Source of the DNA: Novosphingobium sp.
GTDB taxonomy: Bacteria; Pseudomonadota; Alphaproteobacteria; Sphingomonadales; Sphingomonadaceae
Direction of reading: 5' to 3'
Assembly (NCBI RefSeq): GCF_030699305.1
Contig: NZ_JAUYNB010000013.1
Span: 124,001 to 188,000, forward strand
Length of the DNA: 64,000 bases
The notes below the pieces were generated by a model. The model saw only the letters and a program-made list of their open reading frames with translations. It was not told the DNA's origin and did no database searches. Shown here one piece after another: positions 35,489 through 62,527 of this stretch (positions within the stretch are counted from its first letter, which is position 1; every line of letters starts with the position of its first letter). A program made the translations under genes and the position numbers.

Positions 35489-36646
<1,158 letters not shown>

Positions 36647-36823
36647 TTATCCACAGGGTGAGTCATTTGGAGTCCCGCGTCAAGTCGCGACTCCGCAGGA
36701 ATCCTTGGGATTCGGGGTATTGGCAGGGTGTGGATAAGCGGAACAGAACGAGTCCTGCACAGGATATGGAGTCTTGGCGGGCAAGCGGGACTCAACATCT
36801 AGGGGGTGTGTCCCGGCGGACTC
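36647..36823 (-). promoter_or_regulatory. GANTC array with two DnaA boxes upstream of ccrM
   Basis: Nine GANTC sites start at 36660, 36670, 36689, 36699, 36709, 36750, 36769, 36789 and 36819. Gaps are 10, 19, 10, 10, 41, 19, 20 and 30 bp, all close to multiples of 10, so sites fall on one DNA face. Two exact consensus DnaA boxes flank part of the array in opposite orientation: TTATCCACA at 36647-36655 and TGTGGATAA at 36729-36737. The array starts 25 bp upstream of the ccrM ATG. No gene is supportable in 36623-36889. Confidence 0.8.
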
Positions 36824-36889: not shown

Positions 36890-36974
36890 CGTCATCCCGG
36901 ACTTGATCCGGAATCCCGCTTCCTGATGGCGCGCGCAAAGATAGCAGGACCCCGGATCAAGTCCGGGGTGACGA
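36890..36974. repeat. REP-like inverted repeat, family B (CCGGACTTGATCCGG type)
   Basis: Arms at about 36890-36917 and 36947-36974 are inverted copies centred on CCGGACTTGATCCGG, the same layout as the family-B repeat at 35340-35478 but with GC-shifted, still self-complementary arms. It fills the space between the ccrM control region and the lipoprotein gene. Confidence 0.85.
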
Positions 36975-37033
36975 CAGCGCTTGAGATACCCTTTGAGAAT
37001 TGGGAAAACCAAAAACCGAGTAAACAGAAAACA

Positions 37034-37465
37034 CTACTGCTTATAGGTTTCGATGCCGCGCGGTAACTCTCTATAGAAAAATGGCTGCCCTGCGCTACTC
37101 TTGATACAAGCGATTATGTCTTTGTCATTCGGATGCCAAAACGTTGAGCCTTGCCAAATAACATTTTTTTCTGAAGGCATGATGATGGCAGCTGAATGGC
37201 TGGTTTTCTCGATCCATGACACTGCTGGGCCGCACAGCACCAACGCTGAAATCAGCTGTGCAGGGTCAGCGCTTCGATCTTTGCCGCCTTCTACTTTCGT
37301 ATAACCCGCCGGATTATCGTCGGGACCGTATTGAAGTGGAAACTCCAAGGAAATGCTGTGGGCGGCGGACATCATTGTTTCCGATTTTCCGCGGGCCTGC
37401 TCCTGATCCGGTGACCCACACGACGACACAAGGAGCGCAGAGATGAAAAAGACTGATTTTCTCAT
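37034..37465 (-). CDS. Putative lipoprotein of unknown function
   Basis: 143 residues from ATG 37465: MRKSVFFISALLVSSC is a signal peptide with a lipobox (LVSSC, Cys-16). The mature part contains two further Cys (LVLCGPA and IIACIKS) and no recognised family. Its base composition is visibly richer in A/T than that of its neighbours. It lies between rnhB and ccrM, which are close neighbours in many alphaproteobacteria, so it may be an insertion. Confidence 0.65.
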   Translation of the reverse strand: MRKSVFFISALLVSSCGSPDQEQARGKSETMMSAAHSISLEFPLQYGPDDNPAGYTKVEGGKDRSADPAQLISALVLCGPAVSWIEKTSHSAAIIMPSEKNVIWQGSTFWHPNDKDIIACIKSSAGQPFFYRELPRGIETYKQ

Positions 37466-37557: not shown

Positions 37558-38193
37558 CTAAATCAGCACCAGCTGCGCCACCGGGGCAAAGCTGCGGCGG
37601 TGGATCGGGGTTGGGCCATGGTTCCGCAGCGCCGCCAGATGCTCCGCCGTGCCGTATCCGGCGTTGCGATCCCAGCCATAGTGCGGCCAGGTTTCCGCAT
37701 GGGCGCGCATGACGCGGTCGCGGTGTTCCTTGGCAAGGATCGAGGCGGCGGAAATGCAAGGTTCCAGCGCGTCGCCGCCCACGATCGCCCGCGCGGTCCA
37801 ACGCCATTCCGGCACGCGGCCCGCCGGGGTCTTGTTGCCGTCGATCAGCACTTCGTCCGGCTCTGCCCCAAGCGCCTGCACCAGCGCGCCGACCGCGCGG
37901 GTCATCGCCAGCATGGTGGCGGCAAAAATGTTGATCCGGTCGATCTCGTCCGCTTCAACCACGCCCAGCGCCCAGCCGCAGCTTTGCCCGATGAGCGGTT
38001 CCAGCACGGCGCGCCGTCTGGCCGACAGCTTTTTGGAATCGTCCAGCCCATCTGGCGCGGTCACGCCCAGCACGCAGGCGGCGGCCACCACCGGCCCCGC
38101 CAGTGGCCCGCGCCCCGCTTCGTCGACCCCGATCACCCACCGGTCGGACGGGTGCTTGGCAAATCGCTGCGGAACCCCGATGATAGCATCCAT
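37558..38193 (-). CDS. rnhB: Ribonuclease HII
   Basis: 211 residues from ATG 38193. The catalytic acids lie in [17 protein letters not shown] (D and E, about 25-35) and VLIDGNK (D about 124); [11 protein letters not shown] and [12 protein letters not shown] with the last Asp/His region are present. It removes ribonucleotides from RNA-DNA hybrids. The start codon overlaps that of the divergent sugar dehydrogenase at the shared CATG (38191-38194). Confidence 0.94.
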
Positions 38194-61066: not shown

Positions 61067-62527
61067 TCAGGCGGGCGTATCGGTTTCCAGCGGCTCGCTA
61101 TCCGCTGACGGCAAAGCGGGCTGCGCCGATTCCACATGGTCAGAATAGCGCGGATTCGATTCAACAAACGGAATCTCTTCGCTGATTTCACGCTTACCGA
61201 TCTTGATGTGCTTTTCAGTCAGCCTGCGGGCGCGACTGAGTACATTACCTTCATAAGTCTTTGTAAAGTCATTGAACGAATTAACAGCGCGTCCGAGATG
61301 CACACCGGTCTTCACCAAGTCATCTTGGGTCTTTGCAAGACTGTCATAAAGATCGGATGCCAGTTTGCCGATCTCTCGGGCCTCCTTTGCAAGCCCTTCC
61401 TGCTGCCATACCTGCGCAATTGTCCGCGCGATCGCGACCAGGTTGGTCGGACTGGCGAGCAAGACCTTGTTGCGGAATGCAAAATCCCAAAGCGTGGTAT
61501 CATGCTCTAATGCTGCGGAAATGAAATGTTCGCCCGGGACGAACATGATCACGTAATCGGGCGCATTCTCGAACTGCGACTGATAGCTTTTGGTCGCGAG
61601 CGTCTGGATATGATTGCGCATCGAGGCTGCGTGCAAATCAAGATGCACCTTGCGCGCATCATCACCCTCCGCTTCAAACGCGTCCTGATAAGCATTGAGC
61701 GAAACCTTGGCGTCGATCACCAACTGCTTATGGCCCGGCACCCGAATAATCGCGTCCGGGCGCAGCCTACCGTCTTCGGTTTCTACAGAATGCTCAAGGA
61801 GGAAATCGGTATGCTCTGACAGGCCGCACTGCTCCAGCACGTTCTTGAGTTGCTGTTCGCCCCAGCGGCCGCGCGCCTTTGGCGCATTGCGGAGAGAGTT
61901 ACCCAGCCGTGCTGCCTCAACCCTTACGGCATCCTGGCCCTTGCGCATCTCGTCGATCTGCCCAGCAAGCTTACCAAAGGCATCGACCCGGTCCTTTTCC
62001 AGCTTCTGGACCTGTTCCTCATAACTCTTGAGGCGGTCCCCGACCGGCTGGAGCAGCGCCTTGATCTTTTCCGCGCTCTTGTCCTCTGACACGGTCATCC
62101 GCTCCTGCGCGCGGGCGAGGAACGATTCCTGTGCGGCGGCCAGCACTTTGGCCCCGGCGTTCTCAAACTCTTTCTTCAGCCCGTCCTGCGCGGTCAGCAG
62201 CAGGCGCTTCTGTTCATCGAAGTGATCAGCCTTGGCATGCATCGTTGCCAGTTCAGCCGTCTGCTCATCGCGGTGCCTACGCACCTCGGCCAGCTCCGCC
62301 TGCAACGCACCGACCCGTTCTGCCCGCTCACTCGCGGCGGCAAGGTCACGGATCGCGGCTTTGAACATGTCATCAAGTTCGCGCGAAAACCCTTCGGCCT
62401 GCGCCAGCCGCACGCGCAGATCCCCCACCGGGCGACTGGCGAGAAACCAGCCCAGCAGTGCGCCCAGCACGAGCGCGAAAACAACGATTACGGCAATGAC
62501 GAACGGCGAATCCACATCGGCTCCCAT
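61067..62527 (-). CDS. rmuC: DNA recombination protein RmuC
   Basis: 486 residues: N-terminal membrane helix (about 9-30), long coiled coil (about 35-180), then the RmuC nuclease-like core with NAPKARGRWGEQQLKNVLEQCG, PDAIIRVPGHKQLVIDAKVSLNAYQ, MFVPGEHFISAAL and LLASPTNLVAIARTIAQVWQ. In E. coli RmuC limits inversion at short repeats. Note its placement in a window full of inverted repeats, perhaps by chance. Confidence 0.93.
   Translation of the reverse strand: MGADVDSPFVIAVIVVFALVLGALLGWFLASRPVGDLRVRLAQAEGFSRELDDMFKAAIRDLAAASERAERVGALQAELAEVRRHRDEQTAELATMHAKADHFDEQKRLLLTAQDGLKKEFENAGAKVLAAAQESFLARAQERMTVSEDKSAEKIKALLQPVGDRLKSYEEQVQKLEKDRVDAFGKLAGQIDEMRKGQDAVRVEAARLGNSLRNAPKARGRWGEQQLKNVLEQCGLSEHTDFLLEHSVETEDGRLRPDAIIRVPGHKQLVIDAKVSLNAYQDAFEAEGDDARKVHLDLHAASMRNHIQTLATKSYQSQFENAPDYVIMFVPGEHFISAALEHDTTLWDFAFRNKVLLASPTNLVAIARTIAQVWQQEGLAKEAREIGKLASDLYDSLAKTQDDLVKTGVHLGRAVNSFNDFTKTYEGNVLSRARRLTEKHIKIGKREISEEIPFVESNPRYSDHVESAQPALPSADSEPLETDTPA

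Follow-up and report, generated by a model that had tools for sequence, protein, structure and literature searches.

Why does the region upstream of a methyltransferase gene in Novosphingobium sp. carry nine copies of the methylase's own site, GANTC? In the window, i.e. the whole stretch of 64,000 nucleotides analysed here, these sites are found at 36660, 36670, 36689, 36699, 36709, 36750, 36769, 36789 and 36819, with gaps of 10, 19, 10, 10, 41, 19, 20 and 30 bp, exactly as listed in the original prediction. The expected number given there, about 0.5, is reproduced from the base composition (0.51 for 160 starts), and the window's own density gives an expectation of 0.195 for the same number of starts. 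The window is depleted in GANTC, with 78 sites in 64 kb versus a mean of 235 in dinucleotide shuffles. The rarity of the array was evaluated by counting sites per 164 bp in 400 kb of contig C35 of the same genome (630 GANTC, 1.6 per kb), where the densest stretch contains four sites, a maximum reached at 2 of the 630 starts, compared with nine in the array. The window outside the array also has at most four GANTC per 164 bp, at 61128.

The gene that follows the array is ccrM (35489-36622, minus strand), coding for a GANTC adenine methyltransferase of 377 aa. The protein contains the two domains expected of a CcrM, a Pfam N6_N4_Mtase domain (223.4 bits) and a C-terminal RAMA domain (72.5 bits), and it is 97% identical to a Novosphingobium arvoryzae protein. 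Among 199 family genomes, 198 have a CcrM match (E <= 0.001), a match not always being an orthologue. From the domains we infer that the product is an orphan GANTC methyltransferase of the alphaproteobacterial CcrM kind, and methylation of the array sites in this strain is predicted. GANTC is m6A-methylated in a Sphingomonas, according to PMC8067484 (this and the papers cited below are used through extracts).

The original prediction proposed an alignment of the ccrM upstream regions of relatives, and this alignment shows that the array is conserved and that its spacing is fixed. The family set consists of 170 ccrM loci, 80 from named records and 90 from family genomes, the window's own included; two upstream regions are common to both sets (the identical pairs L047/L084 and L080/L090). 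The alignment was made with 76 representatives from 75 of 96 genera (genus g1 is present twice), leaving out further loci of covered genera and L168-L170. The 21 genera outside the representative set are mostly those with the worst CcrM match. The loci are related by descent, so the counts of conservation and spacing given below are not independent.

All 80 named loci (median 8, mostly Novosphingobium) and 82 of the 90 family-genome loci (median 6) have four or more GANTC within 260 bp of the match start; the other eight family-genome loci have two or three. For the 90 loci, the density is 21.9 per kb in these 260 bp and drops to 1.25 per kb over the following 240 bp, most of which is probably coding; the genomes L171 and L172 were kept out of both groups in this comparison. 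Judged by this conservation, the array is a genuine regulatory element, the cis-regulatory region of ccrM. Five columns are prominent in the alignment of the 76 loci, here called s1, s2, s3, s4 and pB. According to the alignment, the array is built in three layers: a core promoter, an upstream block of four sites, and a comb of sites with a 10.0-bp period in Novosphingobium.

The core promoter follows the pattern TTGAC-N14-GANTC-A-NNN-T, which places a CcrM site at -16 to -12, usually accompanied by another one 9-12 bp farther up. In the window, all its elements are on the minus strand. The putative -35 box, TTGACG, is located at 36678-36683; TTGAC occurs in the 40 bp preceding the pB column in 76/76 representatives and exactly 19 bp upstream of pB in 70 of them. 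It is separated by 17 bp from a putative -10 box, CACCCT (36655-36660), which is identical in 38 of the 65 representatives with pB. The site pB itself (GACTC, 36660-36664, predicted position -16 to -12) is a GANTC in 65/76 representatives and 150/170 loci. The next base, at -11, is an A in 64/65 representatives, and a T is present at -7 in 52/65. The transcription start of ccrM is predicted near 36648. A second site, pA (GACTC, 36670-36674), lies in the spacer between the -35 and -10 boxes, and a GANTC 9-11 bp upstream of pB is found in 52/65 representatives. In these 52, the N of pA is G in 28, C in 23 and A in 1, while single-base changes of pB from its modal pentamer are located at N in 9/10 cases among the representatives and in 18/25 among the 170 loci. 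Since the N varies at pA, and pB changes mostly at its N, selection appears to keep GANTC itself, the site of the methylase. Taken together, the sequence evidence for a constrained ccrM promoter is strong.

A GANTC between the -35 and -10 boxes of a sigma-70 type promoter, placed relative to the predicted start, is the arrangement of GcrA-type promoters. Of the 99 family genomes searched for gcrA, 98 have the gene, the genome studied here among them. (The Pfam GcrA model scored above its cut-off in an archaeal control, Sulfolobus acidocaldarius, as it did in Caulobacter.) Control of ccrM by GcrA is already predicted in print: the extracts of PMC7987155 list ccrM as a predicted core GcrA target in many Alphaproteobacteria, and this predicted control seems to have disappeared from part of the Caulobacterales (Caulobacter included) and from the Parvularculales. 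According to PMC3667746, the binding of GcrA depends on methylated GANTC, and GcrA covers -35 to +7 on the fully methylated ctrAP1 and shorter stretches when the promoter is hemimethylated. Sigma domain 2 is bound by GcrA (PMC7403470), and in Caulobacter those start sites that have a GANTC between -10 and -35 belong to a common timing group (PMC4287350).

The known Caulobacter GcrA promoters (mipZ, podJ, ctrA P1) resemble the one described here in having a CcrM site near or between the -35 and -10 boxes of a sigma-70 type promoter of a cell-cycle gene, with GcrA and CcrM present in both organisms. They differ in that they have mostly one site near the start, compared with two promoter sites, a fixed block and a comb in the window, where GcrA binding is predicted. 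In PMC4287350, more than one GANTC is present at 11 of the 96 cell-cycle start sites that have the motif within 50 bp. GANTC is on average more than 1.5-fold over-represented between genes (PMC3973325), far below the excess in the array. The Sphingomonadales ctrA promoters likewise contain several GANTC, up to five within 300 bp, and in the extracts of PMC8116508 no conserved phased architecture is reported for them. In a limited search, with most subscription papers outside it, neither a phased GANTC array at ccrM nor the half-site motif described below was found; in PMC11514494 and PMC5172544 the same search found no passage on the ccrM promoter. What is in print, as far as these extracts go, is thus the prediction of GcrA control, and no account of the architecture of the array was found in the same limited search.

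We consider it moderately probable, from the sequence comparisons, that the array is a GcrA- and methylation-gated promoter through which CcrM feeds back on its own gene. The sequences show the conserved geometry of the promoter, the spacing of the block, the identity of the sites, the fixed position of the DnaA box where it is present and the presence of gcrA; we infer that GcrA binds the array, in which direction methylation acts, what DnaA does and that CcrM methylates the array sites. RNA polymerase carrying the housekeeping sigma factor would use a good -35 box (TTGAC) together with a poor -10 box (CANNNT), at which it would need assistance. Of the two CcrM sites, one reaches into the upstream edge of the -10 box and the other lies about one turn farther up, and GcrA would aid the polymerase there by binding both methylated GANTC and sigma domain 2 at pA and pB.

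The cycle that we find most likely starts with a fully methylated array, which would be covered while the promoter is quiet; passage of the replication fork would leave the array hemimethylated and the promoter would fire; newly made CcrM would then remethylate the array sites and shut the promoter again. Having many sites may make such a switch steeper and less noisy. In Caulobacter, transcription of ccrM is said to require a hemimethylated chromosome (PMC2217572).

Several observations argue against this reading, among them the eight family-genome loci with just two or three GANTC, the 7 of 67 loci outside the family that lack the motif in 260 bp, and the weak phasing of non-core sites in other genera, described below. 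In 8/170 loci, seven from named records (L015, L017, L018, L027, L028, L032 and L052) and L082, TTGAC and the -10 box are kept, a DnaA box about 40-60 bp upstream of ccrM fills the spacer, and there is no GANTC at pA or pB. In these loci, the core methylation sites are dispensable, which counts against methylation gating. It appears that a methylation input has been swapped there for a DnaA input.

DnaA boxes are also present in the window. The original prediction described two exact boxes TTATCCACA in the array, and both are found, at 36647-36655 on the plus strand and at 36729-36737 on the minus strand; the whole 3.36-Mb genome contains 12. The two boxes behave differently among relatives. 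The promoter-proximal box (36647-36655), which reads TGTGGATAA on the minus strand and covers the predicted positions -7 to +2, recurs as an exact box at most 70 bp 3' of pB in 34/76 representatives, and in 32 of these 34 the offset is identical. Allowing one mismatch it is found in 38/76 representatives and is absent even so in the other 38, and it is present in 71/170 loci. Its placement suggests repression: DnaA bound over the predicted start would hold ccrM off around initiation. The second exact box (36729-36737, minus strand) is not conserved, and the locus of the window is the only one of 170 in which the last 320 bp contain a pair of exact boxes. Four loci (L141, L151, L158 and L167) have a single DnaA box farther upstream. 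Of the pair in the original prediction, only the proximal box recurs.

Two exact boxes 82 bp apart, out of 12 genome-wide, could also mark a chromosomal replication origin or a DnaA-loading locus, the array then not being a ccrM promoter. We give this hardly any credence. The sign of the GC skew does not change at the array, no further DnaA box within one mismatch is found near it, and only one of the boxes comes back in relatives, where its position in the promoter is fixed. As a candidate origin, the array was rejected on the GC skew.

The upstream block consists of four GAGTC sites, s1 to s4, with a spacing of 29-20-19 and including an inverted repeat. The outermost site, s1, is a GAGTC on the ccrM strand (36819-36823, minus strand) in 72/76 representatives, and its distance to s2 is 29 bp in 53/60. 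The sites s2 (36789-36793) and s3 (36769-36773) end the two halves of a dyad, CCCTAGATGTTGAGTC at 36789-36804 on the minus strand and CACAGGATATGGAGTC at 36758-36773 on the plus strand; s2 is a GAGTC in 61/76 representatives and s3 a GACTC on the ccrM strand in 53/76, and they are 20 bp apart in 41/48. The innermost site, s4, is a GACTC on the ccrM strand (36750-36754, minus strand) in 50/76, at 19 bp from s3 in 34/37.

The distance from the block to the promoter varies among genera mostly by whole helical turns. Between s4 and pB (n=43) it is 69-71 bp in three representatives, 78-81 in 30 and 89-91 in ten, with none between these classes. The distance from s2 to pB, measured directly (n=55), is 116-119 bp in 37, 128-129 in 12, 107-109 in five and 115 in one. 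Jumps of 10-11 bp correspond to whole turns, an argument for a required rotational alignment of the block with the promoter. In the GcrA-gated promoter that we prefer, further GcrA and/or a second protein bound to the dyad would cooperate from the block with the promoter complex at these distances.

Because GAGTC can pair with GACTC and the sites are nested as s1-s4 and s2-s3, the block could in principle act as RNA, i.e. as a leader, a terminator or a hairpin. RNAalifold over the 76 loci gives no consensus structure, the dyad arms match each other no better than shuffled partners, Rfam has no match over the array, and the predicted transcription start is downstream of it. An RNA element is accordingly very improbable. 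No covariation of the arms was found, and a hairpin or cruciform at the dyad was rejected for this reason. The lack of arm covariation together with the lack of a consensus RNA fold indicates that the inverted repeat is a DNA dyad.

The half-sites raise a different alternative, in which the block is mainly the operator of a dimeric DNA-binding protein that recognises CACAASATRTYGAGTC, the terminal GANTC letting methylation tune this protein, and GcrA acts at pA and pB only. The sites s2 and s3 terminate two inverted copies of CACAASATRTYGAGTC, and the base profiles of the arms are alike, again with no covariation. At s2 and s3 the N is fixed, with only 1 of 17 single-base changes at this position among the 170 loci; it is freer at s1 (6/9 changes) and s4 (24/37, 23 of them GATTC). 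The two fixed sites may thus serve a protein that reads GAGTC and not methylation, which counts against the methylation-gated reading. The base before GAGTC, scored at s2 and s3 with reference to the YGAKTCK motif of PMC7987155, is T or C in 45/48 and 32/48 representatives, respectively. The block is also retained in the eight loci without promoter GANTC, a further point in favour of the operator.

A search with the CACAASATRTYGAGTC 16-mer, allowing at most two mismatches, gave one match each in 9 of 12 genomes, seven of them at ccrM by position, and the reversed control gave one match in all 12 genomes together. The matches away from ccrM are in G132 and G036. Methylation-tuned binding has parallels in Lrp at pap and OxyR at agn43. 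In the genome studied here, dyad half-site 2 is the sole match to the 16-mer consensus within two mismatches, and the lack of a second strong site is unusual for a general regulator. Three of the 12 genomes have no match, which also speaks against the operator. Weighing these points together with the loci outside the family described below, we regard the operator as possible, though doubtful. The half-site motif was also considered as the signature of a regulon and rejected, given one match per genome in 9/12 and seven of these at ccrM; no regulator was identified.

The third layer, the comb, consists of three GANTC at 36689, 36699 and 36709 (36689-36713, minus strand), 10 bp apart, corresponding to alignment columns 639, 628 and 617. 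These columns are filled in 67, 48 and 54 of the 170 loci, and in just 5, 4 and 4 of the 76 representatives. The named loci, mostly Novosphingobium, have extra sites in the gap between block and promoter at 10-bp steps. Two GANTC exactly 10 bp apart occur at 14 places genome-wide, three of them within the array. All nine array positions are in phase at 10.0 bp with a vector strength of 0.957, a value reached by 1 of 20,000 random placements at any period of 9.5-11.5.

The original prediction read this regularity as nearly all sites lying on one helical face. For relaxed B-DNA and the array as a whole this is not the case: the vector strength falls to 0.126 for a turn of 10.5 bp, and a single helical face at this period was rejected. 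On relaxed B-DNA, steps of 10 bp drift by about 17 degrees, so that sites share a face over short distances at best, unless overwinding or wrapping of the DNA brings them into line. In representatives of other genera, the non-core sites are only weakly phased, 23/43 being in phase where 30% is expected (p = 0.001 if the 43 sites were independent, which they are not), with a vector strength of at most 0.49 at the periods tried.

Such a number of sites (the median is 8 for the 80 named loci, most of them from Novosphingobium) could also serve as a decoy or timer, the clustered CcrM sites being slow to remethylate or soaking up CcrM or GcrA, and so delaying shut-off with no phased complex. CcrM is said in the extracts of PMC3667746 to remethylate distributively, which would suit such a timer. 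Against this, mere titration would work at any spacing and orientation and without a comb of 10.0 bp, and nine sites add little to a background of 1.6 per kb in the 400-kb sample. We therefore find a decoy or timer unlikely. A GcrA-type methylation-gated promoter with a phased upstream module, as the sequence suggests, explains the array better than a one-face array joining DnaA, methylation and GcrA.

Caulobacter ccrM is a CtrA target, which counts against a GcrA-gated reading. It is the same gene, but its promoter is CtrA-activated, and the array in the window does not contain the CtrA half-site TTAACCAT, the only form that was scored. Between s4 and the -35 box, TTAACCAT is present in 26/76 family representatives. 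Comb sites occur in 2 of these 26 loci versus 17 of the 50 without it (Fisher p = 0.013, not corrected for kinship), only a hint that TTAACCAT and comb sites exclude each other and that a CtrA input may have been swapped for methylation sites. According to PMC2877005, DnaA motifs at ccrM are found mainly where CtrA sites are absent, and DnaA control of ccrM was predicted there earlier.

Methylation sites inside the operators of DNA-binding proteins are known from the Dam-controlled genes pap (Lrp) and agn43 (OxyR). The ccrM array differs from these in being the methylase's own promoter, in using GANTC and CcrM, and in being conserved across genera, and it is not known as a phase-variation locus. 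Autoregulated methyltransferase genes are known from restriction-modification systems, where the methylase acts on sites in its own promoter, but CcrM is an orphan cell-cycle methylase with a multi-site GcrA-type promoter.

To see how far the promoter extends, we used 67 loci outside the family, 27 returned by the search and 40 picked for family spread, several families being present twice; the choice was made among 196 genomes, out of 240, that had a match. In the 260 bp upstream, at least one GANTC is found in 60/67, at least four in 35/67 and none in 7/67, with a density of 14.4 per kb versus 0.88 per kb farther upstream. The strict pattern TTGAC-N14-GANTC is present in 33/67, compared with 0 matches in 200 bp far-upstream controls, and among these 33 promoters A-11 is found in 33, T-7 in 32 and a second spacer GANTC in 25. 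The looser TTGAC-N13-15-GANTC is found in 36/67, compared with 0.15 expected in shuffles. Used as a regulon finder in six genomes, TTGAC-N14-GANTCA gives 2-4 matches each, one always at ccrM by position. By these patterns, the ccrM promoter type extends well beyond the family, and the four-site block is a family feature in the loci examined. As a whole, the original reading of the locus is borne out in part: its conservation is supported and its one-face and two-box parts are not, and GANTC clusters joined to a GcrA-type promoter at ccrM also turn up in numerous further families of the class.

A motif related to the half-site was found with a score of at least 12 at 19 of the 67 outside loci, ten of which score above 16.0, the best of 1,340 shuffles; the ceiling in far-upstream DNA is 10.5. 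This adds to the case for an operator, as does the fact that some of these copies are the full palindrome CACAANATNTTGTG. The other 48 loci have no motif at that score, which weakens it. Of 15 genomes, five contain CACAANATNTTGTG: at ccrM in G296 and G323, from two other families, and elsewhere in G264, G313 and, twice, G350.

A more far-reaching reading, which we put forward only as speculation and think unlikely to be right as a whole, would be an ancient alphaproteobacterial ccrM switch. It would combine the GcrA-type promoter with a private CACAASATRTYGAGTC operator for a methylation-reading protein; the Novosphingobium comb would wrap methylated DNA in a cooperative GcrA complex, and the cell would count methylated sites to time its cycle. 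CtrA would be partly replaced, and DnaA could take the promoter spacer.

The cis-map given here provides the kept bases, the place where the promoter is expected, the distances that vary chiefly in whole turns and the recurrent DnaA box. With it, the general prediction of ccrM control by GcrA becomes a promoter that can be tested, and a possibly dedicated operator comes into view. It bears on how alphaproteobacteria outside Caulobacter restrict CcrM to a short phase of the cell cycle. If the methylation-gated promoter is true, the array would be a natural case of multi-site methylation acting as feedback on the methylase itself.

Some minor observations were made around the array and the motifs. 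The upstream neighbour of ccrM on the same strand is rnhB (RNase HII; 37558-38193, minus strand; Pfam RNase_HII 135.5 bits). The interval of about 730 bp from rnhB to the array contains a small frame (37037-37444), without a Pfam match and lipoprotein-like by eye. Between this frame and the array there is a palindromic repeat (36890-36975) with two sub-threshold matches to microRNA models, the only ones given by Rfam, probably a REP-like or MITE-like repeat. In G350, a perfect CACAANATNTTGTG at L274, near the contig start, lies between frames resembling recF and gyrB by eye. Finally, the window contains a second, smaller GANTC cluster at 61128-61175, with four sites in 48 bp.
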